From positions 1 to 30,628 of IMG/VR virus record IMGVR_UViG_3300020083_000047: 30,628 nt of DNA; one strand, written 5' to 3'. Below the pieces are notes generated by a model. It was not told the DNA's origin. It saw only the letters and a program-made list of their open reading frames with translations, and made no database searches. The DNA is from a virus. Position numbers and translations under genes: made by a program. Shown one piece after another: positions 1 to 30,628 of this stretch. How positions within the stretch are numbered: the stretch's first letter is position 1; each line of letters begins with the position of its first letter.

Positions 1-1024
1 CGGTTGACATCTGGCAAAGGAGTTCAAGCCCCATACTTCCTACCCTTGCCATCAATTCCTCCTCCCATTTATCCCCATATCTTTTCCTTGTCAGTTCCTT
101 TATGGCGCTTTCCTGTTTTTCTGTGATAGAGCCTCGAAATACTGGCTTTGTGGCTTCGGAAGCCACTTTATCGGGTTCAGCCCCATTCGCCCCGTTTTGG
201 GGCTGTTTTGGCGGTAAAACAGGCTGTTTTTCGCCCTCTGCCATCCCGTTTCCCCAATCTTGGGCTGGGATGTCCAAGGCGTCGTCTATCCCCTCCCGAT
301 ATTCCCTCGAGGTCTCATCAGCCTGTATGGCTCGCTGAAGCTCTATTGACAGGGGCAAAAGTTTAGCAAGTTGGATAAGAACTGTTTTTAGGCACATTGC
401 ATCTGGTTCTTTTGCCCAAGGAGAGCTTGAATAAAATTGATTGGTTTTTTGGTCAAATGTTTTACTATGTTTGCGTCCGTGTTCCATACAATCTTCTTTT
501 GACATAAACATAAATGGTTTAGCGCCACCTTGCACTTCTGCTATTACATAATACCCAAGCACTTCACCCCTATCTATTATTGCTGGTTTGTGTCTTAATT
601 TCGCCTGTGTGCCATACTCAAATTCAAATTCATCATTTTTACGGACAATTCCCCAAGCGAGATTAACTGATTTTTCGTGCCGATAAAATAATTCGGCTAA
701 TCCCTTATAACCACAGATAAATTGTGCATCCAAACGATTAAATTTGTTATTCCAAAAGGGTAGAATATATGCTCTACCCGCAAGCGGTTCAAGCCCCATT
801 TGCGCAGAAACTAATAACGCCCCTATAAAAGAAGCAGGGCTGGTTTTGGTAAGTTCTGGATTTTGCCTAATACAAGTAAGTGCTATTCTTACTAATCGTT
901 CTGGTCGCATATGTAAAGGAAGCGCCTTTTTAAATTCCTTTGCGGCTTTTTCTATTAGTTGTTGTAAAGTTTGCAAATCGTTATTTTTTTTTACTATCTC
1001 TTTTGTTTGCGCTAAATTAGGCAT
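1..1024 (-). CDS. recT: RecT-family single-strand annealing protein (3' end beyond window)
   Basis: Binds single-stranded DNA and anneals complementary strands in phage recombination. The frame is open from ATG at 1024 for 341 codons to the window edge. Residues 1-235 follow the RecT layout: a helical start, then SFIGALLVSAQMGLEP (65-80), AYILPF (85-90), CGYKGLAELFYR (104-115) and GYYVIAE (157-163). A proline- and glutamine-rich linker (about 245-295) leads to a TEKQ helical tail that continues off the edge. The start is fixed by AAAGGAG at 1030-1036, five bases upstream. This Shine-Dalgarno lies inside the last codons of the upstream GIY-YIG gene. The partner exonuclease YqaJ is two genes upstream, as in many exo/annealase pairs. 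Family call is firm; the C-terminus is not visible. Confidence 0.9.
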   Translation of the reverse strand, partial: MPNLAQTKEIVKKNNDLQTLQQLIEKAAKEFKKALPLHMRPERLVRIALTCIRQNPELTKTSPASFIGALLVSAQMGLEPLAGRAYILPFWNNKFNRLDAQFICGYKGLAELFYRHEKSVNLAWGIVRKNDEFEFEYGTQAKLRHKPAIIDRGEVLGYYVIAEVQGGAKPFMFMSKEDCMEHGRKHSKTFDQKTNQFYSSSPWAKEPDAMCLKTVLIQLAKLLPLSIELQRAIQADETSREYREGIDDALDIPAQDWGNGMAEGEKQPVLPPKQPQNGANGAEPDKVASEATKPVFRGSITEKQESAIKELTRKRYGDKWEEELMARVGSMGLELLCQMST

Positions 1025-1026
1025 TT

Positions 1027-1629
1027 TTACTCCTTTCGTTCCCAATGATAATTGCCTGCTGTTTTTCTTTTTCCTTTTAATACTCCTAAAATAACCGTAG
1101 GATGTCTGTTAATTTTTTTAGCTGCTTCCTTTATTGTAGCAAATTCTTCTTTTGTTTCTATACAAATAACAGGACATTTTCTTCTCGCTCTGTTATAAAA
1201 AGGAATTTTGCTCCAGAATTTTTTTAATGATGCGCCTCTTTTTATTTTAGTTTCTAATGATTGTTTTTGATTTGTTAAATTTTTAGCAATTTTTCTTTTT
1301 GTTGTTTTGGAACGATGCTTGCCTTTCCAATAAGCAATTCTATTATTGCCTCCTTTCGTCGCATTATAGCCGTTATTATAACTATTGAATTTTTGAATAT
1401 ATTGGATTTCTTTTTCGTTTAATTGTTCTATTTTGCAGTTTTCTATAAAAATGAATTCAAAATTATTTATTCCATATTTTTTAATTGCTGGATAAAGTCT
1501 ATTATATATTTTATGTTTGTTAAAAATGGCATTTTTTCTATGTTGTTTTATTCTCTTATCAAAATCCGTTGTTTGCCCAACATAAATTTTATGATTGATT
1601 TTATTTTTTATAATATATATTCCTATCAT
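1027..1629 (-). CDS. GIY-YIG homing endonuclease with NUMOD3 and NUMOD1 modules
   Basis: Predicted free-standing homing endonuclease. The GIY-YIG core shows GIY at residues 3-5, YVG at 16-18, the catalytic-type Arg26 in KRIKQH, and Glu72/Glu74 as metal-ligand candidates. It is followed by a NUMOD3-like DNA-binding stretch (WKGKHRSKTTKRKI, 101-114) and a NUMOD1-like C-terminus (VICIETKEEF to YHWE, 154-197), a usual order for this class. It is very AT-rich: 1441-1500 has 11 G/C in 60 bases, against 27 in 60 at 2701-2760 in yqaJ. The start has no good ribosome site, the nearest GGAG being about 14 bases upstream. It separates recT from its usual partner, which points to insertion. An inactive remnant is unlikely because the motifs are intact. 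Confidence 0.88.
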   Translation of the reverse strand: MIGIYIIKNKINHKIYVGQTTDFDKRIKQHRKNAIFNKHKIYNRLYPAIKKYGINNFEFIFIENCKIEQLNEKEIQYIQKFNSYNNGYNATKGGNNRIAYWKGKHRSKTTKRKIAKNLTNQKQSLETKIKRGASLKKFWSKIPFYNRARRKCPVICIETKEEFATIKEAAKKINRHPTVILGVLKGKRKTAGNYHWERKE

Positions 1630-1632
1630 TTA

Positions 1633-2130
1633 TTATTTTGCTTCTCCAAATTCAAATCTTGCACTTTTTGCAAAGTCAATTTTTTCCTTCATATTATCGT
1701 ATATAAATTGAAATTGTGGATATTCGTTAATAAAATCTTTATGTATATAAAAAATAGAATTGTTTATTATTGTAAAAAGGCTTTTATAAATATAAATCTT
1801 TTCTTTATTTTTCCTACATTCATAAATCTCTGGAGAAACTGATGGCATACCAATAAAAATTATTAAAGGTCTTCCAGTCATCTCTACTAATTGTTTTATT
1901 TTTTCTTCTTCTTTATTTGTAGGATAAATAGGTTTTATTTCTCCGAAACATTTATATTGAGGGAACCAAAAATCGGGCAAATATCTTTGTTTGTTTTTTA
2001 ATTCAAAACCTTCATATTCATATATATAATCAATTCCACATTCATCAAAATAGACCGCCCATCTTGCCTCTGTTCTTGAACGGAAGAAATAACCATTATA
2101 TTTTGTTGGTATAATTTTTATATTTTCCAT
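1633..2130 (-). CDS. PD-(D/E)XK nuclease-like protein
   Basis: Probably a small nuclease of the PD-(D/E)XK fold. The visible pattern is FFRSRTEARWAVYFDECGI (15-33, Glu21), RYLPDFWFP (49-57, Asp53) and GEIKP (63-67, Glu64 and Lys66), matching the E...PD...ExK arrangement of a family widespread in phages and bacteria. Substrate is unknown. At 165 aa it has an ordinary N-terminal core and an AT-rich, Ile/Tyr/Lys-rich C-terminal half without recognisable motifs. It starts one base after the yqaJ stop, has no clear Shine-Dalgarno, and ends three bases before the GIY-YIG start. It shares that gene's low G+C, so the two may have arrived together. It could instead be a structure-specific nuclease serving recombination; the sequence cannot decide. 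Confidence 0.6.
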   Translation of the reverse strand: MENIKIIPTKYNGYFFRSRTEARWAVYFDECGIDYIYEYEGFELKNKQRYLPDFWFPQYKCFGEIKPIYPTNKEEEKIKQLVEMTGRPLIIFIGMPSVSPEIYECRKNKEKIYIYKSLFTIINNSIFYIHKDFINEYPQFQFIYDNMKEKIDFAKSARFEFGEAK

Positions 2131-2131
2131 T

Positions 2132-3007
2132 TCATTTATTCTTGCTTACCCTTAATACTCTCGTCTCTTTCTTTATCAGATACTTCTCATATATGCCATC
2201 GGCTTTCAGGGCATCGTAGTTCAATTTTGATACCGCCTGCGATTGCCATTTTACAATATACTCGCTCGTCTTTATCCCAAGGTTATCCCTGATTACCTCT
2301 TTAAGCTTCGCCTCAAGCGCGTTTTTCTGGGTCTCGAGCTCGCTGATATCGGCTTTCGTCTTTTGCAAGGTCGCTATGCAATCGTTCATCTCCTCCACTG
2401 CCTGTATCTGCTCATCTGATTTCGGGTGCAGGGCGAGAAGCATATCGTTATCGTCCCCCGTCGCGGCTGGCGGGGTTTTGTCCAAGACCATATCCCAGAA
2501 CCTGACCGCGGCTTCCCTCATCTTGGCGAACAATTCTTGGTCGGCTTGGATTTCCTTATACCTGAACTTGTTTCCACCTATGAGAACCGCGACATACCCC
2601 TTCTGCCTGCCCGTCACCATAAGTTGCCAAGACACCTGAAGGACATATTCGATTGGGATTTCCTCATCCTTCCATTCCTTTTCTTTCCAAGCGGAGGCGT
2701 TCTTGCATTCAAGAAGCATATCGGTTCCCTCTATAAGCCTGTCCACCTGACAAGCCATATATGGATAGTCCTTATCAACATAGCGCTTGGGGGCTTTCCT
2801 TATCTTCATCCCAGTCGCCTTGGCGAACTTCTTGGCAATAAAATCCTCGAGCTCACTACCGAGCTGGACATACTCCTTATCGGACAAGTCCTCTGGCTCT
2901 ATGTTTCCCGTCTTCTCCGCCCATAATGAGAGGGGCGTATGCCACCGGCTCAAGCCCATCACTGCCGCTATCTCCGAACTGCCTATGAAATTGCTTCTCT
3001 CTTTCAT
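2132..3007 (-). CDS. yqaJ: YqaJ-family viral recombinase (5'-3' exonuclease)
   Basis: Phage alkaline-exonuclease-like protein that would resect double-stranded ends and hand single strands to RecT. Diagnostic features are FIGSSEIAAVMGLSRW (7-22), ELEDFIAKKF (52-61), CQVDRL with Asp89, LECKN with Glu100 and Lys102, and QVSWQLMVTG (124-133). This is the PD-(D/E)XK core of the YqaJ family. Residues about 200-250 are predicted coiled coil (EEMNDCIATLQKTKADISELE), a usual C-terminal feature. At 291 aa it is of ordinary family length. The ATG at 3007 overlaps the preceding small gene's stop region with no gap, and GGAG lies just upstream. Its G+C is normal for the phage, unlike the two genes downstream. 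Confidence 0.88.
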   Translation of the reverse strand: MKERSNFIGSSEIAAVMGLSRWHTPLSLWAEKTGNIEPEDLSDKEYVQLGSELEDFIAKKFAKATGMKIRKAPKRYVDKDYPYMACQVDRLIEGTDMLLECKNASAWKEKEWKDEEIPIEYVLQVSWQLMVTGRQKGYVAVLIGGNKFRYKEIQADQELFAKMREAAVRFWDMVLDKTPPAATGDDNDMLLALHPKSDEQIQAVEEMNDCIATLQKTKADISELETQKNALEAKLKEVIRDNLGIKTSEYIVKWQSQAVSKLNYDALKADGIYEKYLIKKETRVLRVSKNK

Positions 3008-3133
3008 TTAATCCTCCAACGCTTTTTTGATACCCGCGGTTATCGCCAGACGATAAACCCACAATCCACCCAAGGTAATCACACAAAACAAGCAATAAAA
3101 GAAAGTATCAAACGTGTCTCTTTTTATTCTCAT
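3008..3133 (-). CDS. Small membrane protein, 41 aa
   Basis: A short frame reads MRIKRDTFDTFFYCLF then CVITLGGLWVYRLAITAG and ends IKKALED. It has one hydrophobic helix (about residues 9-34), a positively charged N-terminus and a short charged tail, consistent with a single-pass inner-membrane protein with the N-terminus inside. A ribosome site (GGAG, eight bases upstream of the ATG at 3133) supports translation. It overlaps the upstream gene by 26 bases, and its stop codon abuts the yqaJ ATG. Function is unknown; small membrane proteins in such positions include holin-like and superinfection-related proteins, but nothing here selects one. Confidence 0.65.
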   Translation of the reverse strand: MRIKRDTFDTFFYCLFCVITLGGLWVYRLAITAGIKKALED

Positions 3134-3329
3134 TGTTTTTCTCCTTTTGCCTCATATATTCCCTCAACTGGGCATCAAAATAATCGGTAATAAACTGCTG
3201 GAAGGTTTTTGACATCATTTGGTAGGTCTTATTCTTTTGCAGTTTCAGGTAGGTTTCGGCAAGCCAATCCAGTTCCTCATCGCTTGCCTTTGCCTGCGCC
3301 CCGCATTTGGTGCTAATCAGCTCTATCAT
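3108..3329 (-). CDS. Hypothetical protein, 73 aa
   Basis: Unrecognised soluble protein, mostly helical and charged (DEELDWLAETYLKLQKNK, then FQQFITDYFDAQLREYM). The start is taken at ATG 3329 because GAAAGGAG lies eight bases upstream. A longer reading from a TTG at 3347 would place that Shine-Dalgarno inside the gene and is less likely. It is followed by the 41-aa membrane protein and yqaJ in the same operon, with translational overlap. A role near the recombination genes is only positional inference. Confidence 0.65.
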   Translation of the reverse strand: MIELISTKCGAQAKASDEELDWLAETYLKLQKNKTYQMMSKTFQQFITDYFDAQLREYMRQKEKNNENKKRHV

Positions 3330-3377
3330 ATCATTAACTCCTTTCAATTATCATTATAGACCTGCTATGGTGCGTAA

Positions 3378-3584
3378 TCAAAGCGATATTTTTAATTTAC
3401 AATATCCGTTGGTAAATTTTATTATTTTATCCGGCGTATTTTTATTTATTCTATCAATCCGCTTGCATATCTTTTCCATAATCCAGAATAGATTGCCCGT
3501 GGTCATATCCATTTTTTTCTTTTTCATATACCAATAGGCGACCTCGTATAAAGTTGTGTCCAGATAGCAATTCTTGTCTTTCAT
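3378..3584 (-). CDS. Hypothetical protein, 68 aa
   Basis: Unrecognised basic protein (MKDKNCYLDTTLYEVAYWYM start, many Lys). The ATG at 3584 follows a strong GGGGGAGGG ribosome site. It sits in the leftward early operon, with about 50 bases separating it from the next gene. No motif or membrane segment is visible. Confidence 0.6.
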   Translation of the reverse strand: MKDKNCYLDTTLYEVAYWYMKKKKMDMTTGNLFWIMEKICKRIDRINKNTPDKIIKFTNGYCKLKISL

Positions 3585-3600
3585 AAACCCTCCCCCAGCT

Positions 3601-3822
3601 TTAGTCCATCCTTATCAGTTTATCAAATGGAACGGCATAGCAAGGCACGGAGCCATTGGTATCCAGTAAGCATTTTACAATTTCAGAACTTTGTATATGA
3701 AATTTCATTCCCGCCAGATGCTTGGCTTTGGTGAATACTATCTCGTTCCATCCGCTGCACACCCGATACTTTGCAATCAAAACTACTTTATCCCTATATC
3801 TCGGAGCCCAGATTTCTATCAC
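3601..3822 (-). CDS. Hypothetical protein, 73 aa, GTG start
   Basis: Unrecognised, probably beta-rich small protein (DKVVLIAKYRVCSGWNEIVF, then MKFHIQSSEIVKCLL). GTG at 3822 is chosen because GGAG lies upstream with suitable spacing; there is no better ATG. It overlaps the end of the preceding gene by 29 bases, suggesting coupled translation. Confidence 0.58.
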   Translation of the reverse strand: MIEIWAPRYRDKVVLIAKYRVCSGWNEIVFTKAKHLAGMKFHIQSSEIVKCLLDTNGSVPCYAVPFDKLIRMD

Positions 3823-4051
3823 TTTCCCACTCCGCTTTTATGCTATAAACCCTGCACTCCATATCGTCTATCCAATCAATCAGATTTTGTATGTCTTTTC
3901 TAAATAATTCAAAATTACCAGGATAGTTAATACAATCAAGCACATCCCGCATATCGCAGTTCGCCTCTATGATAATCTTAATATCCAGAGGAGGTATGCC
4001 CACAGACCTATCGCCATTATTGCCTGCCTCAATTACAAGTTTTTCCATCAT
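3794..4051 (-). CDS. Hypothetical acidic protein, 85 aa
   Basis: Unrecognised acidic protein containing a GIPPLDIKIIIEANCD stretch and a helical DIQNLIDWIDDMECRVYSI region. Two adjacent ATG codons (4051, 4048) follow AAAGGGG; the first is used here. It overlaps the next gene in the operon by 29 bases. Confidence 0.6.
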   Translation of the reverse strand: MMEKLVIEAGNNGDRSVGIPPLDIKIIIEANCDMRDVLDCINYPGNFELFRKDIQNLIDWIDDMECRVYSIKAEWESDRNLGSEI

Positions 4052-4064
4052 CTTGCGCCCCTTT

Positions 4065-4612: not shown

Positions 4613-4822
4613 CTTGACCCCCAATTTTGAGGCAGGTGCGGGGAAACTGGGGAGAAACCCCACCAAAGGATGTTCGGCGTTTGGAGCCTCTGCACCCACC
4701 CTGCCATATTTTAGTTTTATGCCGCCCCCAGTCATTGTTTATTCCTTATATCTGCGCAATCAAGCTGATATATACTGTCTTGCTGGCGCTGTCCATATAC
4801 GCCACAGGATTCCCAGTCTTGA

Positions 4823-5255: not shown

Positions 5256-5288
5256 TCTAATCCCCTCCCCAGTTAGTGGTAAACAATA

Positions 5289-5462: not shown

Positions 5463-5492
5463 CTTTTCCTCTCCTTGTTAATAGTGCTTGGG

Positions 5493-5648: not shown

Positions 5649-5697
5649 CTTCCCCTCCCCAGTTTTGCCCTCTTGCGCCTTCAGGCATTGGCTTATG

Positions 5698-6305: not shown

Positions 6306-6629
6306 ATGCCATTCCAAAAAGGACATCCCCCTATGGGGGGCAGACCAAAAAGAGCCGAGGCGCTCGAGATAAATCTCTTTCAGGCGATACGCTCTGTAAG
6401 GAAAAACAGGCAGGATAAAAAAGATATCATTGTCCATTTCATCAAGAGGTGTTATGAGAGCGACGAGATGCTCAAGGTGCTTATAAATAAACTTATTCCA
6501 AATACCGAGGAAAAAATATCGCTTACTGGGGATACTCCATCCAAAGTTTTAATCCAAATTATGAATACCTTTACGAACAAGGAGCAAAGTGCCAGCGATA
6601 GTAGAATTAAAGAGCTCAATAGTATTTGA
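6306..6629 (+). CDS. Candidate small terminase subunit
   Basis: 107-aa basic protein directly before, and overlapping, the large terminase gene, the usual place of the DNA-recognising small subunit. It begins MPFQKGHPPMGGRPKRAEA, a GGRPK N-terminus common in phage packaging proteins. A helical centre follows (DIIVHFIKRCYESDEMLKVL), then LIPNTEEKISLTGD, seen in several small-terminase-like proteins. No certain family match. The ATG at 6306 has no Shine-Dalgarno. ATG 6333 has AAGGA about ten bases upstream and is an alternative start, but would remove the conserved-looking N-terminus. It overlaps the next gene by 41 bases. Confidence 0.5.
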   Translation: MPFQKGHPPMGGRPKRAEALEINLFQAIRSVRKNRQDKKDIIVHFIKRCYESDEMLKVLINKLIPNTEEKISLTGDTPSKVLIQIMNTFTNKEQSASDSRIKELNSI

Positions 6630-7800
6630 GCTTAACAATATAGCCTGGGATAAAAAAAAGATAATAGTCAATCAAGGCGGCACCCGCTCGTCCAAGACAT
6701 ATTCCATAGCACAGTTATTTATCACAAAACTCCTCGAGACCACAGGCAAAATCCTTACCATAGCGAGAAAAACCTCTCCCTCGATGCACTCCTCCGTGAT
6801 GCGTGATTTCTTCACAATCCTCAAGAATATGGGTCTTTACGAGGACTGGCGGCACAACAAGTCAAACAACGAATATAATCTGCACGACAATCTGGTCGAG
6901 TTCATATCAATGGATATTGCGGAAAAGAAGAAAGGCACAAAGCGGGATTACCTTTGGCTAAATGAGGCGACCGAGTTCGATTACGAGGACTTCTTCCAGC
7001 TATCCATAAGGACTTCTGATAAGATTTTTATGGACTATAACCCCGCATACGAGTATCATTGGATTTACGATAAGGTTCTGACGCGGGAAGACGCCGTGCT
7101 GATAAAGTCGACTTATCTTGATAATCCATTTCTTGAGCAGAGCCTGAAAGAGGAAATTGAGCGCCTGAAAGATACTGATGAGAATTATTGGAAGATTTAC
7201 GGGCTTGGCGAGAAGGGGCAGACGAAGGCGATAGTGTTCGACAACTGGAGTTTGATAGATTGCTTCCCAGACGAGGAAAATCTGGACGAGGTTCTTTACG
7301 GGGTGGACTTCGGATACAATAACCCAAGTTCGCTAATCAAGATTGGGGTGAAGGACAGGGTCAATGTTTACATTCAGCAACTTCTCTACCAGAGATACCT
7401 GACAAACACGGATTTCATAGCACAGCTCAACCAGCTTATCCCAGAATACGAGAGGAACAAGAAGCTAATCAAGGCGGATAGCGCGGAGCCCGACAGGATA
7501 GAGGAAATCAAGAGGGCGGGGTTTTACATCGAGGGCTCAAAGAAGGGGAAGAATAGCGTCAAGGATGGGATAGATGTGGTGAAAAGAAAGAGATTGTTCA
7601 TTACCAAGGACAGTTCTGAACTCATAAAAGAGATACGCTCCTACAAGTGGAAAGAGGACAGGGATGGCAGGGTGCTGGATGAGCCCGTAAAATTCAATGA
7701 CCACGCCATATCAGCTATGAGATATGCGATTGAGGATTTGGAGGAGCAATCGGGAAGCGGCATAGCGATGGCGGATTGGGATTTCTTACAAAGGAGATAA
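6589..7800 (+). CDS. terL: Terminase large subunit (PBSX / Terminase_3 family)
   Basis: Packaging motor ATPase and nuclease that translocates phage DNA into the prohead and cuts it. The ATPase domain has the variant Walker A GGTRSSKT (30-37) and a Walker B ending YLWLNEA with catalytic Glu126. The C-terminal RNase H-like nuclease has acidic residues Asp240 (GVDFGYNNP), Asp297 (KADSAEPDR) and Asp371 (FNDHAISAMRYA). At 403 aa it is of typical length for the PBSX family. GTG 6589 is chosen because AAGGAG lies four bases upstream. The first codons overlap the end of the preceding gene. Portal follows directly, as in most siphoviruses. Confidence 0.93.
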   Translation: MPAIVELKSSIVFELNNIAWDKKKIIVNQGGTRSSKTYSIAQLFITKLLETTGKILTIARKTSPSMHSSVMRDFFTILKNMGLYEDWRHNKSNNEYNLHDNLVEFISMDIAEKKKGTKRDYLWLNEATEFDYEDFFQLSIRTSDKIFMDYNPAYEYHWIYDKVLTREDAVLIKSTYLDNPFLEQSLKEEIERLKDTDENYWKIYGLGEKGQTKAIVFDNWSLIDCFPDEENLDEVLYGVDFGYNNPSSLIKIGVKDRVNVYIQQLLYQRYLTNTDFIAQLNQLIPEYERNKKLIKADSAEPDRIEEIKRAGFYIEGSKKGKNSVKDGIDVVKRKRLFITKDSSELIKEIRSYKWKEDRDGRVLDEPVKFNDHAISAMRYAIEDLEEQSGSGIAMADWDFLQRR

Positions 7801-10838: not shown

Positions 10839-11831
10839 ATGAAAGGCAAGATTATTTCGGATTGGAGAAAGGTAGATTTCTCCGATGCCTCCTCAAGGGC
10901 TAAACTGGTCGGGGCATTACAGCATTTTATGACGATGCCTGACCGTGATGTGACCTTGAAAAAGGCAATGCAACATTTCGCAACAAAGGGAGATTTCCCG
11001 ACCGAGATTCTGCAGGTTCTGGAGAAGTTCCACGCAACACCTGATTATGATTTGGGGTATGAGGAGTTATTTGACATTCGTGATTTCTCTGGCACGAATG
11101 AGAGCGGTTTCAAAATCCTGAATGTGGAGAGCGGTTTGACATTCGCCAAGGTATTGCCAGGTGAGAAGGCTAAAGTTTACAAGATGTCGGGGACAGAGGT
11201 GTCTGTGAATTTTGACCTTTATGGCGGTGCTTTAGGCTGGTTCAGGACATTGATTGACGACCGTCAGTATTGGACACTTGAGGACAATGCTATCGCATTT
11301 CGCAATAAAGCATATTCTTCAAGGGCGTCAAATTTCTATGCTCTGATTGAGGCGGTTACTGGCAAAGATGTCGCTTGGCAGGCAGTGACCCCCGCATCCG
11401 TGGCGACCAGCAATGAGAATTACAATGCCATCAGAGATGTGAATACCATCAATGCCGCTTGTCTTGAAATCTTGACCGCCTTGAAGGACGCAGGTATCGG
11501 GGCGAATGCTAATAGCCAATTCGTGGTGTTAGCGCCTATCGCCTTGAAATCCCGTCTTGAGAGAGCCGCCAAGATGTTACAGCAACCCGTGGTTGGTTCA
11601 GGACAGCATTTAGCATTCAACATCAGGGTTATATATACCCTTATGTTAACAAGTTCATCTTATTACTATGTTATCCTTCCGAAGGCGAAAATGAAGGGTG
11701 GATACAGGATGGACTTGACCATATACGACCAGTTTGATATTCTTGCTTATGCGGACACTATGGCAGGCTGGATGCGTTATGGCGGTGCTATCGGAGATAC
11801 AGACCAAGTTCGTAAGTGCGCAACAGCGTAA
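10839..11831 (+). CDS. Major capsid protein
   Basis: 330-aa product in the canonical position after scaffold and decoration genes. It begins with a helical arm (RAKLVGALQHFMTMPDRDV), has a central LYGGALGWFRTLIDDRQYW and YSSRASNFYALIEAVTG region, and ends with an A-domain-like LTIYDQFDILAYADTMAGWM strand/helix. This is consistent with the HK97 fold, though the exact family is not identified. AAAAGGAGGATAC is a very strong ribosome site. The glycan cassette starts only 12 bases after its stop. Confidence 0.82.
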   Translation: MKGKIISDWRKVDFSDASSRAKLVGALQHFMTMPDRDVTLKKAMQHFATKGDFPTEILQVLEKFHATPDYDLGYEELFDIRDFSGTNESGFKILNVESGLTFAKVLPGEKAKVYKMSGTEVSVNFDLYGGALGWFRTLIDDRQYWTLEDNAIAFRNKAYSSRASNFYALIEAVTGKDVAWQAVTPASVATSNENYNAIRDVNTINAACLEILTALKDAGIGANANSQFVVLAPIALKSRLERAAKMLQQPVVGSGQHLAFNIRVIYTLMLTSSSYYYVILPKAKMKGGYRMDLTIYDQFDILAYADTMAGWMRYGGAIGDTDQVRKCATA

Positions 11832-11843: not shown

Positions 11844-13439
11844 ATGGGGGGGAAGCATAACAATTCAATGCTATGCCGAACCCCCAATGCCAATGGGATT
11901 GCGGAAATCAAGGAGAACATCCCGAAGATTAACTTTACTCCAAAGCCGAATAAAAGGGTAAAGAGAGAGGCAAAAATGGGTGGCGCACTCACGATGTCGG
12001 ATGTAAAACCGATAGAACCTATCATACAGAAGGAAAAGAAGGTAAACTCCGTAACGATGAAGGATGTGCCTGAAAGGAGTTTATTACAGCAATACATTGA
12101 CAATCTGTATGACAATGACGGGAGGCTAAAGAAGGACAAGTTCCTCTATGAGCATTTTCCCGCTGGCATCTGGAGGAATAAGAGATGTTTCATCATAGGG
12201 GGCGGTCCATCTTTAAAGGGATTTGATTTCAGCCAATTAAAAGGCGAGTTAGTAATAACCGTCAACAGGGGATTTGAATACTTCCCCTCTGCGATAAATG
12301 TATGCCAAGACGCAAGAGTATTCGGATTTTACGAGAATAGGGAGTTCAAGGAAGGCGATGAGGCACGGAAGAAATTCTACGATTACAAAGGTTACAAGTC
12401 TTGGCTCAATGTTCAGGCTTTTCCTTTCCCAGAGGACATATACCAGATAGGCATAGTCCACCCAGCGGATTTCAACTACACAAACTATTCAGGCGGCATC
12501 CCACCCTACAACAATTCGGGACTAAACGCTTTATGCCTTGCGGTGTGCCTCGGGGCTAATCCCATTTACCTTCTCGGATTTGATTGCAAAGGAAAGGACG
12601 GGAGAACCGCCAATTTCCATTCTGGCTATCTGGATACCAACAAAGAGGAGATATATCTTGATTTCATAAGGGATTTCAATTATGTGTCTGGGCAGATAAA
12701 CGGCAAGACAAGGGTAGTCAACCTCAACCCCGATAGCGCTATAAAGTGCTTTGAGTTCGGGGAAATGAAGGATATACAGAAAATCAAAAGACCAATATTG
12801 GTGTCATTCTTTACCAAAGGCACGGGATACGAATTGGAGATAAAGAGGCTGGAGAGGTCGGCAATAAAGTTCGGGTTTGAATACGACTTTTATCCGCAGG
12901 AGAATTTGGGAAGTTGGAGGGCGAACATACACGACAGGATTAGGATACTGAAGCATTTCCTGAATAAACACCCTGACAGGGACATACTTTACATAGACGC
13001 TGATGGGGAAGTTCAGCAATACCCTGAATTGTTTGACAATTTTGAGGGGGATTTCGGGATAGTCAAGATAGACAGGAGCAAATACTGGGATAATTGGAAG
13101 GAGTGGCATCACGAAAGGGAGGAATACCTCGGTGGGACAATGTATCTCAAGAATAATCGTAATATTCGTAATCTATTAGACTTATGGGATAAACTGGATG
13201 CCCCGATGGAAACAAAGTTATCACAGCATACCTTGATAAATGCCATAAGGAAAATGGGGGATAAATTGAATATCCGTTTGCTACCCCTGACCTACTGCCA
13301 GATATTTGACACTATGGTTGACGAGGGGGAGCCGATAGTGGAGCATTTCCAGGCGAGCAGAAGGAGCATCCTGTATATCAAACTCAAGGAAGACGGCACG
13401 AAATACCTTGATTTTACAGGGGCGAACCTAAAAAAATGA
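11844..13439 (+). CDS. Two-domain glycosyltransferase-like fusion (DUF115/GT42-like plus GT-A)
   Basis: 531-aa protein with two apparent catalytic modules. Residues about 113-300 form a Rossmann-like domain opening CFIIGGGPSLKGFDFSQLKG (115-134), with SGLNALCLAVCLGANPIYLL (225-244) and GFDC...FHSGY. This pattern is shared by DUF115/MptE-like proteins and GT42 sialyltransferases. Residues about 317-531 look like a GT-A glycosyltransferase with RDILYIDADGEV (379-390) carrying an Asp-X-Asp metal motif. The first 100 residues are basic and unrecognised. The ATG at 11844 has a weak ribosome site; ATG at residue 45 has GAGAGAGG upstream and may be used. It overlaps the next gene by four bases. Donor and acceptor are unknown. 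Confidence 0.65.
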   Translation: MGGKHNNSMLCRTPNANGIAEIKENIPKINFTPKPNKRVKREAKMGGALTMSDVKPIEPIIQKEKKVNSVTMKDVPERSLLQQYIDNLYDNDGRLKKDKFLYEHFPAGIWRNKRCFIIGGGPSLKGFDFSQLKGELVITVNRGFEYFPSAINVCQDARVFGFYENREFKEGDEARKKFYDYKGYKSWLNVQAFPFPEDIYQIGIVHPADFNYTNYSGGIPPYNNSGLNALCLAVCLGANPIYLLGFDCKGKDGRTANFHSGYLDTNKEEIYLDFIRDFNYVSGQINGKTRVVNLNPDSAIKCFEFGEMKDIQKIKRPILVSFFTKGTGYELEIKRLERSAIKFGFEYDFYPQENLGSWRANIHDRIRILKHFLNKHPDRDILYIDADGEVQQYPELFDNFEGDFGIVKIDRSKYWDNWKEWHHEREEYLGGTMYLKNNRNIRNLLDLWDKLDAPMETKLSQHTLINAIRKMGDKLNIRLLPLTYCQIFDTMVDEGEPIVEHFQASRRSILYIKLKEDGTKYLDFTGANLKK

Positions 13440-14071
13440 TAGATATAATATTCGCAGAGTTCGGGGCGGCAAAGAGACAGCCAGATTTGGAGAACATAAG
13501 ATATTACTTTCCCAATGCCGAAATAAATGTATTTGATGAGAGTAACTGCGTGAATTACTTTGCGGACAGCCCTTTCTGGGGACATTATATGAACGACTAC
13601 CACAAGGTGGAGAAACTGCTTGAGAGCAAGGCTGACATAGCCATAGCATTTGATGCCGACATTAAAATAGTGGACAATAGGGTGAGAGTGTTAGAATTGC
13701 TCGCAAGGAAATTCGGGCTATGCCTGCCCGCCAATCCGAGGAAACTGGTAAAGGTGGATACAGAGATAGGGTCGCACAGTGACGGGATGCTTGATGAAAG
13801 CCTCGGTATGGGTTACGCCTTCAATATGACACCGATAGTATTCAACACGAAGCACTATGTGGCGAGGCAAACATTGGAGAAGTATTGCGAGATAATGATT
13901 GAAAATCCCGTGAGGGGTCCTCTGGCTATGTGGAGGGCGGCATATAGTATAGGCTTTTTTCCCTGCCTTCTGCCCCCGCAATGGTGTGTATGCAAAGAAG
14001 ACATCGGGATAGGGAATGAGATAATCTTACATATAGGGCATAAAGATGTTGCAAGATACTATGGAGTTTAA
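13436..14071 (+). CDS. GT-A-fold glycosyltransferase-like protein
   Basis: 211-aa protein with a nucleotide-sugar-transferase layout: a first strand MIDIIFAEFG, then WGHYMNDYHKVEKLLESKAD and IAIAFDADIKIVDNR, whose DAD (73-75) is the metal-binding DxD motif, and a C-terminal ILHIGHKDVARYYG. The later LGMGYAFNMTPIVFNTKHY stretch resembles the acceptor-side loop of small glycosyltransferases. It is coupled upstream by ATGA and overlaps the downstream methyltransferase by 26 bases. Sugar specificity cannot be read from the sequence. Confidence 0.65.
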   Translation: MIDIIFAEFGAAKRQPDLENIRYYFPNAEINVFDESNCVNYFADSPFWGHYMNDYHKVEKLLESKADIAIAFDADIKIVDNRVRVLELLARKFGLCLPANPRKLVKVDTEIGSHSDGMLDESLGMGYAFNMTPIVFNTKHYVARQTLEKYCEIMIENPVRGPLAMWRAAYSIGFFPCLLPPQWCVCKEDIGIGNEIILHIGHKDVARYYGV

Positions 14072-15071
14072 GGCTCTGGCGAAAGAGGATATATGGGGGG
14101 GTGGCTGGTATCAGCCCATAGTATTCCCTGACGGCTCTAAAACTAATTCCACTAAATACAATGATTTTTTTGAAAGGAATGATTTTGGAGAGAGGAAGTG
14201 GGATAATTACATCAAGCCCTATTTGCAGGGAAAATCATTCCTTGAGATAGGTTGCAATGCGGGGTTATTTTTGGTATTAGCGGAAAAGGCTGGATTTGAC
14301 AGGGTATTCGGATTAGAGAAAACGGAATACTTTTATGAACAATGCTTGTATGTATTGAAACAATTTGATAGCAAGGCGGTAATCTATAACGCAGATGCCT
14401 TGAAATTCGATTACGATAAGACAGGGGATATAGATACAATCCTTTTATCTAACGCCTTATACTGGATAGGATTTGATGATGAAGGAAAATATTGCGCTAA
14501 TTATGAGCAGAAAATAGACAAGTTCCTGCGCAAACTGGCTTTTTACGGAAAAAGGATAATTTTCATAGGCGAGAATGATTTGGATAGGATAGGCGGTAAC
14601 CTTGATATGACTTTGCCTTGGTTACAAAGGTATTTTGATATTAAAAGAGTGGAAGTATTAAATACAGGGCATAGAATATTAAACTTGATAGTTACAGATA
14701 CAAAGATTGAGCGACAGGAAATTGATATAGATAAATTAGTCAAGATAATTCAGAACAGAGGATATTACGCAAATGATTTCGTATACACTTTCTGTAATTT
14801 TATCAATGGTTACATCGCCTATACCGAATGGCTGAAACAATATCGTGATAGTAATGAATTAGGGAAGGGTAATATCCTGTTGCATTCATTGGCTATCAGG
14901 CAGTTAAACCTACTCAAATCAATTATGGATAATGGATTACAAAAGGATATAGAGATATTTAATGATAATGGCGAAATAGATATAGACGGCTGGCATAGAT
15001 TGTTAATTATGCAGGCATTGGGGCAGAAAACAATAAAATGCAGGAAAAATAAAGATGTCAAACTGGAATAA
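14046..15071 (+). CDS. SAM-dependent methyltransferase with C-terminal ParB-like DGxHRL motif
   Basis: 341-aa product. Residues about 60-200 are a class I methyltransferase: motif I FLEIGCNAGLF (65-75), an acidic strand end VFGLEKTEYF, and GDIDTILLSNALYWI. It is preceded by YQPIVFPDGSKTNSTKYNDF, close to sugar- or nucleoside-modifying methyltransferases. The C-terminus has IDIDGWHRLLIMQALGQKTI (311-330), the DGxHR signature of ParB/sulfiredoxin-like domains, which bind nucleotides in several contexts. The middle (about 205-300) is helical and unassigned. ATG 14046 is used although its ribosome site is weak. It probably methylates a glycan or a sugar intermediate, given its neighbours. Confidence 0.68.
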   Translation: MLQDTMEFKALAKEDIWGGGWYQPIVFPDGSKTNSTKYNDFFERNDFGERKWDNYIKPYLQGKSFLEIGCNAGLFLVLAEKAGFDRVFGLEKTEYFYEQCLYVLKQFDSKAVIYNADALKFDYDKTGDIDTILLSNALYWIGFDDEGKYCANYEQKIDKFLRKLAFYGKRIIFIGENDLDRIGGNLDMTLPWLQRYFDIKRVEVLNTGHRILNLIVTDTKIERQEIDIDKLVKIIQNRGYYANDFVYTFCNFINGYIAYTEWLKQYRDSNELGKGNILLHSLAIRQLNLLKSIMDNGLQKDIEIFNDNGEIDIDGWHRLLIMQALGQKTIKCRKNKDVKLE

Positions 15072-15645
15072 GCTCTGGGAAATCAGCAATTATTGGGACA
15101 AGATTATGGCTATCCCAGAATTGGAGGAAAGATACCACAAGGAATTCCTGAAAGATTTGGAGCAGTTCAAGATTGACTTGAGATGCCCTGCGGTGGATGT
15201 AGGGGCGGGGGCTTTTGGCGGGGTATTCAATTATATGGATTTTATAGGAGAGAAGATAATAGTTGACCCCTGCGCTACCGAATTCAAGGAAAAATACGGG
15301 AAGATAAAGGATGGCATAAGATTGATAGATGCCTTCTCTTACAATATACCATTATCCGATTTATCAATGAACAGCGTATTTTGCATTGAGACCCTTGACC
15401 ATTGCAACTCAAAAGAGGAATATACGCAATCTGTGCATGAGTTGATAAGGATACTGGCAAAGGGCGGGAGATTATATTTTATGTTGCCCTTGAGAAAGAT
15501 ACCGATTGATGGGCATTTCATTTCCCTTGAAACTATATCACTTGAGGAGATTATATCCCCATTCAGGAGGATTAAGGCTGATTACAGGATATTAAATGAC
15601 CATTTGTTTTTAACTGGAGTAAAGGGGGAGAGGCAAGGTGAATAA
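15055..15645 (+). CDS. Class I SAM-dependent methyltransferase
   Basis: 196-aa methyltransferase with motif I AVDVGAGAFGG (46-56), an acidic IIVDP strand, FCIETLDHCNSKEE, and ELIRILAKGGRLYFMLPL (post-motif typical of Methyltransf_11). The C-terminal IKADYRILNDHLFLTGVKG closes the fold. It overlaps its neighbours by 17 and 8 bases. Together with the previous gene this gives two different methyltransferases in the glycan cassette. Small-molecule or sugar substrates are more likely than DNA, because no DNA-target motif (NPPY/DPPY) is present. Confidence 0.75.
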   Translation: MSNWNKLWEISNYWDKIMAIPELEERYHKEFLKDLEQFKIDLRCPAVDVGAGAFGGVFNYMDFIGEKIIVDPCATEFKEKYGKIKDGIRLIDAFSYNIPLSDLSMNSVFCIETLDHCNSKEEYTQSVHELIRILAKGGRLYFMLPLRKIPIDGHFISLETISLEEIISPFRRIKADYRILNDHLFLTGVKGERQGE

Positions 15646-16225
15646 AAGGATAAATCTCCTACTGGCGCATCCCGATGACGAGGTGATATTCGGGTGGGCT
15701 GTATTGAAAGGGGCGAAAAGGATAATCTGTTGCTCCAACGATTTGAATAACCCCGAAAGGGCGTGGTGCAAGGACAGGAATAAGGCATTGCTGGAGATAG
15801 GAAATCTGGTGGGCGCAGAAGTGGTATGCCTTGATAATAACAGCGAATTTTACAGATTGCCTACAAGAAACGGGGATTTGAATTCCTTTGTGAATAATGT
15901 GATGAATGTGGTAAATATGATAGTTGGCGATTACCACGACAATCTGATATTTACCCATAACTCTTGGGGGGAATATGGGCATTTAGACCATATCCTTGTA
16001 AATCAGATAGCACATTTAACGAAATATGATTTGATAACTTCGGATATTACCCTTGATGCGGGATGGTTTGAGGTTGATAATAATTTAATCGGGAGAAAAA
16101 ACTTCATTTCTAATCATACCATAGATTTGGACTTCTACAACCGTTGCAAAAAGATATACGACAAATACGGGTGCTGGACCTGGAGCAAGGAGCCAGTTAA
16201 GGAGTGCAATTTATATGAGATTTAG
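15638..16225 (+). CDS. PIG-L / LmbE-family deacetylase
   Basis: Zinc-dependent de-N-acetylase family acting on N-acetyl sugars. It shows the signature LLLAHPDDE (HPDDE at 11-15) near the N-terminus and the second metal/catalytic set NSWGEYGHLDH (His115, Asp117, His118). The length (195 aa) is near the family norm. GTG 15638 is selected by GGGGGAGAGG upstream. A deacetylase beside glycosyltransferases implies the cassette's glycan or donor contains an N-acetylated sugar (inference). Family assignment is strong; substrate is unknown. Confidence 0.85.
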   Translation: MNKRINLLLAHPDDEVIFGWAVLKGAKRIICCSNDLNNPERAWCKDRNKALLEIGNLVGAEVVCLDNNSEFYRLPTRNGDLNSFVNNVMNVVNMIVGDYHDNLIFTHNSWGEYGHLDHILVNQIAHLTKYDLITSDITLDAGWFEVDNNLIGRKNFISNHTIDLDFYNRCKKIYDKYGCWTWSKEPVKECNLYEI

Positions 16226-16242
16226 AATATTTTGGAGGGTAT

Positions 16243-16929
16243 GTGAAGGTAATTAGCGCATTATACAATACCCCTGACAGGGATTATGCAATGCTTATGC
16301 TCAACCTTCAGGAGAGCGTGAAAAAGGTGGGGTATGATTTTGAGCAATATTTGCTTGAAAGAGACCCTATGATTAGGTTTGGCGGTAAGGATGATTACTT
16401 CGCCCCCTGCACCTTCAAGCCCTTCATCATAAAAAGGGCATTGCAGGAATTGAAGGAAGATGTATTATGGCTGGACAGTGATTGCCTTATTAAAGATAGG
16501 GTGAACGAGATATTTGATGATTGCGATGTGGCGGTGACCTTGAGGAGGTTTGACAGGACGCATTTGAGGGATATTTACGATGGATATATCAACGCGGGGG
16601 TAATGGCGTTCAGGTATAATCAAAGGAGTTTGAGCCTCATAGACAGGTGGATGGACCAACTGGCAGGGAGCCGTGCCGACCAAGATGCCTTCAATAAAGT
16701 GTTACTTGATTATTCTTTCCTTGATAAATTCGGGGAAATTATAGATATAGAGGGAACAAAAGTAAAGATACTGGACTGCGATACTTATAATTTCTTCTAT
16801 TTTGAGGACAAGGATAAGATAGACAAAGCTAAAATATACCATATAAAAGGACATTTAAGACCGCTATACTATGATATGATAGCGGAGAAAGTATTAGGAG
16901 GAGAGTATGTCATTAACAGTCGGCACTAA
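16243..16929 (+). CDS. GT-A glycosyltransferase-like protein
   Basis: 228-aa protein with DVLWLDSDCLIKDR (73-86; DSD metal motif at 78-80), YINAGVMAFRYNQRSLSL and SRADQDAFNKVLLDY. This combination is typical of the nucleotide-diphospho-sugar transferase (DUF268/Glyco_transf_8-like GT-A) group, with IYHIKGHLRPLY near the end as an acceptor-side His motif. GTG 16243 has GGAGGG five bases upstream. It overlaps the start of the connector gene by 23 bases, tying the cassette to the late structural transcript. Confidence 0.72.
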   Translation: MKVISALYNTPDRDYAMLMLNLQESVKKVGYDFEQYLLERDPMIRFGGKDDYFAPCTFKPFIIKRALQELKEDVLWLDSDCLIKDRVNEIFDDCDVAVTLRRFDRTHLRDIYDGYINAGVMAFRYNQRSLSLIDRWMDQLAGSRADQDAFNKVLLDYSFLDKFGEIIDIEGTKVKILDCDTYNFFYFEDKDKIDKAKIYHIKGHLRPLYYDMIAEKVLGGEYVINSRH

Positions 16930-24765: not shown

Positions 24766-27700
24766 ATGATAGAGATAAAATACTATCCGATAAGATTTGA
24801 GAAGAAAGATGCAAAGGTATTCAATTACGAATACAACAGGGATATTTCCCTAAAGGAATACCTTGATAGGACTGGAATTGATTATATGGATTTTGATATA
24901 ATCATAGACGGCAAGCCTTCCGACAATCTCAATCAAAGGCTGGATAATCAATCTGAAATAATCATCACCCCCAAAATAGAGTGGGCGGCTGTGGTTGCTT
25001 GGTGGGCTGGTTTGACCTTGTTCGGTAAAATAATAGCGGTCGTTACCGTAGCATTAACGCTTTATTCTATATTTCAGGCGGTAACAGCCTCGGTGAGAAA
25101 GCCGTCATTCGGCTCATTTAGTTTGGGGGGTATTGATGGCGGGCTTGACCAAGGTTCACCTACCTACGGATGGGAAGGGCAGAGGACTATTCAGGAAGTA
25201 GGAGTGCCTGTAAAAGTGATATACGGGGAGCATAAGGTTGGCGGAAACATAATCAATCAATATGTGTCCACGGATGGGGATAAGCAATACCTGAATATGC
25301 TCATAGGGGTAAGTGAGGGCGAAATTGAAAGTGTAACCGACATAAAACTGAATGACAATTCTATCGCCAATTACACGGGAGTAGAGATAAGCATAAGATA
25401 TGGGACAAATAATCAAGCGATGATTTCAAACTTCGAAGATTTGCATAACCTCTATTCAATAGGAGCAAATCTTACCAAGGATAATCCCTATGTATACACC
25501 ACTATTGATAATGATGTGGAGGCATTTGAGATTTATTTCACACTGCCCGCTGGATTATTCCAAGTCAATAGCAACGGGGCGGTGGCGAGTTGGAGTGTCG
25601 TTTATCTGGTTGAATACAGGGTTAGCGGAGTTGGCGGTTACATAAGTTTGGGCTCTACCACAATCTCTGGATTGACAAGGACAACAATCAGGAGGGTGTT
25701 CAGAAAAGAGGGGCTTTCTCCTGCAAGATATGATATTAGAATAACAAGGACATCTGAAAACAGTTCTTTAGACCCCCAAAGGACAGGTGATTTGACTCTG
25801 GTGAGCATAGATGAAATTAAGACTGATGATTTGATATATCCCAATACCGCCCTGTTAGGCATAAAGGCATTGGCTACAGACCAATTAAGCGGCTCTACCC
25901 CAAATGTAACATATATAGTGAAGGGCAGAAAGGTATCAATGCCAAAGGTAAAGACTTCTCCTACGGGGAGTGATGTAGATTGGGAGGATTACTATTGGGA
26001 TAGTGAGGATGAGGAATTCAAATTATTGGCAGATGATACTTCTTTATATTGGGATGGAACAACCTATGTGGAAAAGTGGGGAGCAAATCCTATATGGTGT
26101 ATGAAGGATTTACTATTGAATCATAGATACGGTCTTGGGGAATACATAGATGAAACGCATATTGATAATGATGAATTGCTGGAAATGGCTAAATACTGCG
26201 AGGAAAAGATAAGCGATGGCAATGGAGGATACGAAAAAAGGTTCAGGCTGGATTTGGTTATAGACTCCTCATCAAAAGCCCCAGATGTGCTGTCGCAGAT
26301 AACAGCCACATTCAGGTCATTCGCATTTTATTCCCAAAATGGTTTCTCTTTCAGGATAGACAAAGCGGATATTCCAGTTCAGACATTCGGGGTAGGGAAT
26401 ATACTGGAGAATAATTTTACCCAAAATTGGAAATCAAAAAATGAAATCTATAATGTCGTGGAAGTGCAATATATGGACAAGGATTTGGATTATCAGGATG
26501 AAACTGTCGCAATAATAGATGAGGTAGCCCTTGCAGATGGCGACCCAATAAGGAAAACCCAGTTAAGATTGTTCGTTACGAGACAATCCTATGCCATAAG
26601 GGAAGGGAGATATGCCCTGTGGCTGGCGAAATACATTGACAGAACAATCCAATTCAATGTTGGGATAGACGGGATTGCCTGCCAAGTCGGGGATATAATC
26701 AATGTAAGCCACGATATTCCTCAATGGGGGTTTTCTGGAAGGGTGAAATCTGGTTGTTCTTCTACTAATATCAAACTTGACAGAATAGTGGAAATAGAAG
26801 AAGGGAAATCCTACAAATTGATGGTAAGGTTCAATAACAATACCATTGAGGAAAGGGTTGTAACCGATGCGGTCGGCAATTATACGGAGGTAAATGTATC
26901 TACGCCATTCAGCCAAGTTCCCCAAGATTACGATGTATATTCATTCGGAGAGACCAATAAGGTGGTCAAGCCTTTCAGGGTTGTGAGCATATCAAGGGAA
27001 GAAAAAGGCGAGGCGAGTATAACCGCCATAGAATACAATGAGAGCGTGTATGATGATACCGATATAGTAATCCCCACGAACAATTATTCGGCATTGAGCA
27101 GGGAGATACCCAATGTGGTGGGGTTAAATCTCACAGAAAGCCTTGTTAAACTTGGGGATGGGACAATAGAGACCACTATTGATGTATGGTTCACTAAACC
27201 CAATATGGCGAGTTATTATGTAGGGCAATATGTGAAAGCGCAAATATATTTGAGCGATGATGATGGGGTGAGTTGGCAATACAGGGGTGAGACATCAGGC
27301 GAGTATTTCAAGATTATAGGCGGGATAGTGGATTTGAAGGAATACAAGGTGGCTGTTGTAAGTATAGGGAACCTTGATAAACAGAATTCAATATCAGATT
27401 CCCCACAACAGACTATAACCGTTGCAGGAAAAACTACGCCCCCAGAGGATGTATCTTCTTTCCTTGTAAATCAAGATAGGGATAGATTGGCTTTCGGATG
27501 GACTCCTGTTTCTGATATTGATATATGGGGATATGAGATAAGGAGAGGCGATAGTTGGCTGGGCGGTGAGGTTGTAACATTCACAGTAGGGAATAATTAT
27601 CTGACAACCGATGTCAGATTAGGGATTGACCAGAGTTATTGGATTAAAGCCATTGATACCTCTCTTAATTACTCCGCCAATGCGACAGAGGCGGTAGTAA

Positions 27701-28395
27701 CAGTCCAGAATGTACCTTACAAAAATATAATCACAGAATATTCCGAACAGACCGCTTGGGCTGGGGATAAGGTAAACACCGAGAAAGAAGGAGATAACCT
27801 TGTATTATCGGAAGGAGAAATATCTGGAACCTATACCACCCCAGAGAGAGACATCGGATTTATAGCGACATTTTCAATGTCTATTGAGGTCATCATTTCT
27901 ATAAATGAAAATCTGCGGTTCAACAGTTCAGCCACAAGAAAATTCAATGATAGTTCAACACTTCGCTGGACAGGTGAAGATATAGCGGGTGATGTGCAAT
28001 TTGAGATACGGACTTCCGAGGACGATATTACTTGGTCGGATTGGGTTACATTTCAGAAAGGCGATTATATCTGCCGATATTTCCAGTTGAGAATGACATT
28101 GAACAGGGAAGATGTGGATATAGATGTTATATGCTCCCAATTTAACTATACCGCTGATTTGCCAGATATAAATGAATTCGGGAGCGATGAGGTGACGGTG
28201 GCGGCAGACGGGAAGGAAATCGTATTTGAGAAAATATTTCATCAAGAGCCGAATGCCCATATAGAAATCAGGACAGGCGATGGGATATACAGCAAATTCA
28301 CGGCAAAAGACACTACTGGTTTCACGGTAAAATTATATGATGCGGCAGGGGTGGCGAAAACAGGCGAATTTGACTGGCACGCCTATGGTGTATAG
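24766..28395 (+). CDS. J-like tail-tip / host-specificity protein with I-like N-terminus, 1209 aa
   Basis: Large central tail-tip protein. The first 70 residues look like a beta-grasp domain (MIEIKYYPIRFEKKDAKVFN ... IIITPKIEW) followed by an apolar segment at about 73-106 (WAAVVAWWAGLTLFGKIIAV), features of lambda gpI, here joined to J. Then come the J-type hub (QEVGVPVKVIYGEHKVGGNI; MLIGVSEGEIESVTDIKLND; VWCMKDLL-like YTR) and an FNIII-type domain at about 890-985 (TPPEDVSSFLVNQDRDRLAF). The C-terminus (KIFHQEPNAHIEIRTGDG ... FDWHAYGV) resembles the H-type tail-fibre end. Receptor contact is likely in that end. ATG 24766 follows a four-base gap. Confidence 0.78.
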   Translation: MIEIKYYPIRFEKKDAKVFNYEYNRDISLKEYLDRTGIDYMDFDIIIDGKPSDNLNQRLDNQSEIIITPKIEWAAVVAWWAGLTLFGKIIAVVTVALTLYSIFQAVTASVRKPSFGSFSLGGIDGGLDQGSPTYGWEGQRTIQEVGVPVKVIYGEHKVGGNIINQYVSTDGDKQYLNMLIGVSEGEIESVTDIKLNDNSIANYTGVEISIRYGTNNQAMISNFEDLHNLYSIGANLTKDNPYVYTTIDNDVEAFEIYFTLPAGLFQVNSNGAVASWSVVYLVEYRVSGVGGYISLGSTTISGLTRTTIRRVFRKEGLSPARYDIRITRTSENSSLDPQRTGDLTLVSIDEIKTDDLIYPNTALLGIKALATDQLSGSTPNVTYIVKGRKVSMPKVKTSPTGSDVDWEDYYWDSEDEEFKLLADDTSLYWDGTTYVEKWGANPIWCMKDLLLNHRYGLGEYIDETHIDNDELLEMAKYCEEKISDGNGGYEKRFRLDLVIDSSSKAPDVLSQITATFRSFAFYSQNGFSFRIDKADIPVQTFGVGNILENNFTQNWKSKNEIYNVVEVQYMDKDLDYQDETVAIIDEVALADGDPIRKTQLRLFVTRQSYAIREGRYALWLAKYIDRTIQFNVGIDGIACQVGDIINVSHDIPQWGFSGRVKSGCSSTNIKLDRIVEIEEGKSYKLMVRFNNNTIEERVVTDAVGNYTEVNVSTPFSQVPQDYDVYSFGETNKVVKPFRVVSISREEKGEASITAIEYNESVYDDTDIVIPTNNYSALSREIPNVVGLNLTESLVKLGDGTIETTIDVWFTKPNMASYYVGQYVKAQIYLSDDDGVSWQYRGETSGEYFKIIGGIVDLKEYKVAVVSIGNLDKQNSISDSPQQTITVAGKTTPPEDVSSFLVNQDRDRLAFGWTPVSDIDIWGYEIRRGDSWLGGEVVTFTVGNNYLTTDVRLGIDQSYWIKAIDTSLNYSANATEAVVTVQNVPYKNIITEYSEQTAWAGDKVNTEKEGDNLVLSEGEISGTYTTPERDIGFIATFSMSIEVIISINENLRFNSSATRKFNDSSTLRWTGEDIAGDVQFEIRTSEDDITWSDWVTFQKGDYICRYFQLRMTLNREDVDIDVICSQFNYTADLPDINEFGSDEVTVAADGKEIVFEKIFHQEPNAHIEIRTGDGIYSKFTAKDTTGFTVKLYDAAGVAKTGEFDWHAYGV

Positions 28396-30107: not shown

Positions 30108-30119
30108 AAGGAGAAAATT

Positions 30120-30317
30120 ATGGCAAATTATTGTGTTATAAATAATAATGATAAAATAGTAGATAATAGAATAGTTTGGGATGGGATTTCTTCTTGGACT
30201 CCGCCTGCTAATCATACAGCAATAAAATCTGATATAGGGCAGATAGGGGATAAATACCAGAATAGCAAATTTTACTATTGGAATGAAGAAACCCAAAAAT
30301 GGATAGAAAGAACTTAA
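30120..30317 (+). CDS. Hypothetical protein, 65 aa, tail-fibre associated
   Basis: Small Asn/Asp-rich protein (MANYCVINNNDKIVDNRIVW; WNEETQKWIERT). AAAAGGAG precedes the ATG, 12 bases after the adhesin. Short proteins with 'Y.v..n..I.v.W.g' are common beside tail fibres, as accessory or assembly factors. The AT-rich composition matches the adhesin C-terminal end. Confidence 0.55.
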   Translation: MANYCVINNNDKIVDNRIVWDGISSWTPPANHTAIKSDIGQIGDKYQNSKFYYWNEETQKWIERT

Positions 30318-30365
30318 CTTGTGGACGAATTCAAGAATGCAATAAATTACTAAAGGATGGCTAAA

Positions 30366-30628
30366 ATGGATAAAGCAAAAGAACAAGATAATTTTCTTGA
30401 AAACATTTCAAAGTTGCCAGAATTTTTTGCTCCAAAATACCATACGCATAAAGAAATTGATATAATTGACCTTGATAGGATGCGCTGGAAAGGGAAATGG
30501 GTAAAAGATACAGATTATAAAGTTAATGATGTAGTATCCTATCAAAATGCTCTTTATATCTGTATGACGGATAATAAGGGGGAGAAACCTACTTCCGATT
30601 TTTGGGAAAAATTGATAAGCATAATATC
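30366..30628 (+). CDS. Tail-fibre-associated protein with carbohydrate-binding-module-like stretch (3' end beyond window)
   Basis: Open frame from ATG 30366 to the edge (87 codons visible). RWKGKWVKDTDYKVNDVVS followed by YQNALYICMTDN and PTSDFWEKL has the W...Y...GD-V-Y...Y pattern of chitin-binding type-3-like carbohydrate-binding modules, common in phage tail spikes. AAAGG lies about nine bases upstream; an in-frame ATG at 30357 is too close to it. The role beyond glycan binding cannot be judged. Confidence 0.6.
   Translation, partial: MDKAKEQDNFLENISKLPEFFAPKYHTHKEIDIIDLDRMRWKGKWVKDTDYKVNDVVSYQNALYICMTDNKGEKPTSDFWEKLISII

Follow-up and report, generated by a model that had tools for sequence, protein, structure and literature searches.

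The window, by which we mean the whole 30,628-nucleotide stretch of viral DNA analysed here, represents an unusually strong case of a known phenomenon, the elimination of restriction sites from a phage genome. Eight independent palindromic words (CTAG, GATC, GGCC, GTAC, CATG, CTNAG, ACGT, and CCGG), picked after inspection of all palindromes, are found at no more than about 0.1 of expectation, where the expectations lie between 39 and 130 copies. Very probably, this loss reflects selection by several Type II restriction systems in a phage lineage that infects the Omnitrophota; both restriction as the cause and the systems involved are what we infer from the pattern. Removing Type II sites is a well-established way of countering restriction, and roughly one in ten genomes of prokaryotic viruses is reported to have eliminated at least one site (Rusinov et al. 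2018, PMC6286503). The phenomenon is thus already known, and what is unusual is the number of words that are affected and the turnover of the missing set between relatives.

The window is a fragment of a tailed bacterial virus and encompasses a large part of an uncultured phage genome. Its G+C content is 41.1%, rather than the value of about 38% given in the preliminary description. The features that are referred to below are as follows:

1..30628: source record IMGVR_UViG_3300020083_000047 (IMG/VR), the whole window
2..1045, minus strand: RecT-like recombinase (Pfam PF03837, E 2e-43)
2132..3007, minus strand: YqaJ-like exonuclease (Pfam PF09588)
6589..7800, plus strand: terminase large subunit (Pfam PF04466 and PF17288)
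10839..11831, plus strand: probable major capsid protein, judged by its place in the structural module and by how well it is conserved in relatives
11844..16929, plus strand: block of sugar-transferase, methyltransferase, and PIG-L-like genes (Pfam and PHROG matches)
15436..15439: the sole CATG, inside a methyltransferase-like gene
24766..28395, plus strand: lambda J-like central tail protein (phrog_31, E 3e-159)
27712..27715: the sole GTAC, inside the J-like tail gene

The PHROG family that the capsid candidate matches has no known function. The sugar-transferase, methyltransferase, and PIG-L deacetylase-like block lies between the capsid and neck genes, and possibly serves in virion decoration. 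Further genes encode a cell-wall hydrolase, a minor capsid protein, a tape measure protein, and two homing-endonuclease-like proteins. No DNA methylase or base-modification gene and no integrase was found among the scanned proteins of the window, which is part of a genome. By analogy with the greater frequency of site elimination in non-temperate phages (PMC6286503), the virus may itself be non-temperate. The same sequence is found in two further contigs: 3300020074_000123 (L077 and L015) is 100% identical to window positions 9789-30628 and extends 2.7 kb beyond the right end, and 3300020109_002195 (L188) is identical across positions 1-4882 and extends 2.6 kb beyond the left end. The loss of sites therefore cannot be put down to a fault in the assembly of a single record.

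CTAG, GATC, and GGCC do not occur once in the 30,628 bases, and GTAC occurs a single time. The order-1 Markov expectations for these four words are 81, 128, 102, and 43, respectively, and the order-0 expectations are 109, 109, 52, and 109. The preliminary description, which had been made by reading through the sequence, reported all four to be completely absent and proposed a comparison with a Markov model; the comparison bears out the depletion, with 0-1 copies observed against 43-128 expected, and absence is complete for three of the four. The list of lost words was also too short, as it overlooked CATG (1 observed against 130 expected under the order-1 model), CTNAG (0/93), and ACGT (4/39), and cited CCGG (5/70) as a word that is present. 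The occurrences it mentioned of TCGA at 307, GCGC at 522, AGCT at 1120, and CCGG at 3431 are all in place, yet three of these four words are depleted (TCGA 21/85, AGCT 34/105, and CCGG as above), with only GCGC at a normal level (58/51). The statement that there is no general loss of palindromes thus needs correcting, since most of the G+C-containing palindromes are lowered to some degree. TCGA, GANTC, AGCT, CGCG, GCWGC, GGWCC, and CCWGG (11/50) are reduced to 0.14-0.40 of expectation, TGCA is mildly low, and AATT, ATAT, and TATA are close to or over expectation. GGSCC and CCSGG, with no copies each, were considered as extra specificities but dropped because all of their instances include GGCC or CCGG; nested words are counted once in the tally of eliminated words, which gives eight for the window.

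The flanking bases appear to matter for TCGA and GCGC. TCGA is observed 4 times against 44 expected between A/T flanks, 8 against 41 between mixed flanks, and 8 against 9.4 between G/C flanks, and with CTCGAG at 6/3.7 the word is not avoided in this last context. GCGC is found at its normal level except between G/C flanks (0/9). Such flank dependence may mean that the true targets are longer than four bases or that some contexts are protected.

The loss of words is independent of both protein sequence and codon usage. When synonymous codons were permuted gene by gene (45 genes), which preserves the proteins and the codon usage of every gene, the observed and expected counts were 1/75 for GTAC, 0/86 for GATC, 1/52 for CATG, 0/53 for GGCC, 4/43 for ACGT, 5/40 for CCGG, 0/30 for CTAG, and 0/65 for CTNAG. 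The corresponding z values, for the four-base words and CTNAG, run from -6 to -12, and no shuffle approached the observed counts. The depletion is also specific to palindromic words, including interrupted palindromes, of the kind recognized by orthodox Type II systems. All of the four-base words were screened, and those that are not palindromic stood at about 0.65 of expectation or higher; CTCTTC (2/20), which is asymmetric and six bases long, departs from this specificity.

Loss is found in every module of the window. For a hard-word set comprising CTAG, GATC, GGCC, GTAC, CATG, CTNAG, CCSGG, and GGSCC (the last two partly nested), the observed and expected counts per module are 0/68, 0/83, 1/79, 0/58, 0/28, 1/50, and 0/21, or 2 in sum against about 387, while five control words stand at 0.82-1.06 of expectation per module. 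The two homing-endonuclease-like genes, of the GIY-YIG and HNH types, were considered as possible carriers of sites that had escaped the purge; they contain no hard words, where the expectations of 2 and 6 are low. The moderately avoided words are at 0.31-0.45 of expectation in positions 1-11831 (the early, terminase, and capsid part) and at 0.10-0.20 in positions 11844-28395 (the sugar-gene and tail part), as if these two sets of modules had different restriction histories.

Relatives of the phage retain the sites that the window lacks. L016 and L078, both of them contigs from a single further sample, share about 71% DNA identity with the window, and their proteins are 78% (J) and 93% (capsid) identical to its own. 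Between them, 184 of their sites for the eight words align with the window (44 GATC, 38 CCGG, 29 CTNAG, 29 ACGT, 23 GTAC, 12 CTAG, 5 CATG, and 4 GGCC), and none of these is intact there, compared with 24.6% of their ordinary four-base words. This comparison is not outgroup-polarised; seven more distant relatives also have the words. Codon by codon, the amino acid is unchanged at 35 of 54 lost sites in J and at 16 of 24 in the capsid gene, in a tally that includes TCGA and one site that is kept. Relative to kin that retain them, the sites have been removed largely by synonymous change. The purge may touch the protein sequences too, because the codons for the dipeptide Trp-Pro always contain GGCC: this dipeptide is absent from the window, where 4.7 are expected, and from seven other GGCC-poor loci (0 against 12.4 pooled, some loci being near-duplicates). 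As Trp-Pro is under expectation in other loci as well, the signal is only suggestive.

The missing set is common to close sisters and different in relatives at about 71% DNA identity. The sister contigs L189 and L190, in which the YqaJ-like exonuclease is 87% and 80% identical to that of the window, respectively, with figures of 80% and 74% over its gene, lack the same words, either all or part of the set. L189, with avoidance as in the window, encodes a Vsr-family mismatch endonuclease (L189:416-757) beside a dCMP deaminase gene. Contig 3300035698_004947 (L063/L087), from a more distantly related uncultured phage, resembles the window in its colinear genes, in a 65%-identical capsid protein, and in the number of eliminated words, which is seven to eight if nested words enter only once. 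Its set is a different one: CGCG, GCGC, CASTG, CCWGG, and GCWGC are eliminated, along with ACGT, GTAC, and in part CTAG, whereas GATC, GGCC, and CCGG are retained.

Among the known phages measured here, a small and hand-picked set, GGCC is completely or nearly lost in Bacillus phi29, GATC and GGCC are completely or nearly lost in Staphylococcus phage K (50 kb), and GATC is nearly lost in T7 (6/149). By the same tally, phi29 has five eliminated word classes, phage K four, and T7, KHP30, and Nostoc N1 two each, against the eight of the window, from which phi29, phage K, and T7 differ also in their genes and hosts; there are none in 47 of 110 loci. The description of the window as unusual rests on these reference phages and the relatives rather than on a survey. 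Site elimination is almost confined to orthodox Type II systems, and the dsDNA phages in which it has been described are like the window in that palindromic sites fall below one tenth of expectation and asymmetric words are hardly lost (PMC6286503). The window, which does not appear among the cases of that study, differs from them in its eight independent words within 30 kb and in a set that shifts between relatives. Moreover, the host restriction-modification (R-M) systems are known for the phages of that study, whereas the host of the window is predicted to phylum only.

Homology of its genes indicates that the phage lineage most likely infects the Omnitrophota, an uncultured phylum. When the J profile was scanned over genome contigs, taking one genome per species, 15 loci matched, of which 9 are from Omnitrophota, and 2 of these lie on the complete Ca. 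Velamenicoccus archaeovorus chromosome; the remainder are labelled Dehalococcoidales, Halanaerobiales, Ruminococcaceae, or merely 'bacterium'. Relatives of J are found in 17 of 384 Omnitrophota genomes and matches to the capsid protein in only 2, and the terminase, queried against the one-genome-per-species contigs, returned no relative. In one Omnitrophota genome, G140, contig 79 (44.9 kb) shares its gene order with the window over the region that starts at the gene following the terminase and extends to J, in circularly permuted form; together with the J matches, this contig supports the phylum as host. The J and colinear relatives are only 41-61% identical to the window and thus point to a host phylum, not a species. 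Several Omnitrophota contigs (G001:C1:1880665, G002:C34:154309, G006:C22:26708, G113:C7:24030, and G210:C42:7211) encode N6/N4 methylases of about 435-455 residues at a distance of roughly 15-20 kb from J genes, and relatives of the window phage may carry a methylase of their own. A literature search found no account of Omnitrophota viruses or R-M systems.

Candidate restriction enzymes for three of the missing words are present in the phylum, if specificities are predicted from family names. Of the 384 genomes, 6 have an endonuclease of the DpnII (GATC) family, 13 one of the MjaI (CTAG) family, and 3 one of the HaeIII (GGCC) family. One DpnII locus is an intact operon with a D12 methylase, and the N6/N4 methylase neighbour of one MjaI endonuclease was confirmed. 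Only G243 has both DpnII-like and MjaI matches; in 80 kb of this genome (L226 and L227), which encodes the MjaI-type endonuclease and gives a weak DpnII match, CTAG stands at 9/189 and TCGA at 13/235. No Omnitrophota genome was found to carry systems for all eight words. The idea that the missing words could help to identify the host is accordingly upheld only in part: the phylum was reached through gene homology and not through the words, and no single genome with the whole set was found, but endonuclease families for three of the specificities are found there.

Just beyond the window, the purge is less complete. A tail-fibre gene begins at position 30357 and runs past the window end into many 'SNFFG' repeats (L015:15864-18528). 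This repetitive right extension contains four CATG and one each of CTAG, GATC, GGCC, and CTNAG, which amount to most of the CATG in the contig and its only copies of the other four words. It is perhaps a recently acquired host-range segment for which the purge is still pending.

In the process that we favor, selection by restriction, hosts within the range of the phage would possess several orthodox Type II restriction systems, and unmethylated incoming phage DNA would be cut at each unprotected site, so that site-poor genomes would survive more often. Mutations, mostly synonymous, would gradually have removed nearly all copies of the eight words and, by the same process, part of TCGA, GANTC, AGCT, CGCG, and GCWGC. 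The preliminary description had already suggested selection by several R-M systems, and a depletion that is palindrome-specific, survives the codon shuffle, is largely synonymous, and varies in its set between relatives agrees with it. A variant of this explanation, in which a phage of wide host range underwent a cumulative purge in hosts carrying one to three systems in turn, is quite possible, if somewhat short of an even chance. It would suit the rarity of the three endonuclease families and the joint presence of DpnII-like and MjaI matches in G243 alone. In plasmids, six-base targets are avoided more strongly as the host range widens, although the four-base palindromes show no such link (PMC10359461), and the even elimination across modules would fit one steady pressure equally well.

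Causes other than restriction are all improbable. A host-driven mutational or compositional bias, in which the phage copies the oligonucleotide signature of its host, draws on the fact that CTAG is at 0.05-0.36 of expectation in every Omnitrophota stretch sampled, with CTNAG, GTAC, and TCGA low in some. The same stretches, however, have GGCC at 0.80-1.43, CCGG at 1.07-1.98, and GATC and CATG at 0.45-1.27, which argues against an effect of composition, as do the sites retained in L078 despite its 93%-identical capsid protein; nor would composition leave GCGC normal with GGCC at zero, and we regard this bias as very unlikely. Slightly less likely still is some other palindrome-linked cause, such as Vsr-type mismatch repair, DNA or RNA structure, or the avoidance of CRISPR target motifs. 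Vsr-family enzymes act on CTAG-like mismatches in known systems, and one is encoded by the sister contig L189, but such repair would raise CCWGG and affects one word family; as CCWGG is low in the window, it was rejected. A structural cause would not spare GCGC and AATT, and PAMs are not palindromes as a class. Least credible of all is an artefact of assembly or of a restriction-enzyme library. Although all of the sequences are metagenome assemblies, the genes are open and intact over 30 kb, identical sequence was assembled in further records, and the sites were lost by base substitutions, mostly synonymous, that digestion cannot make.

The window is a clear example from nature of a single virus exposed to many restriction specificities, and its relatives allow the turnover of the set to be measured. 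It also links a group of uncultured phages with the Omnitrophota and suggests that missing-word sets could be matched to R-M genes for the prediction of hosts. More tentatively, and with rather more doubt than confidence, this group may replace the entire set of missing sites from one fairly close relative to another. If so, each genome would preserve, in the words that it lacks, the R-M repertoire of the hosts it has recently used, and these words could be read as a fossil record of host range.
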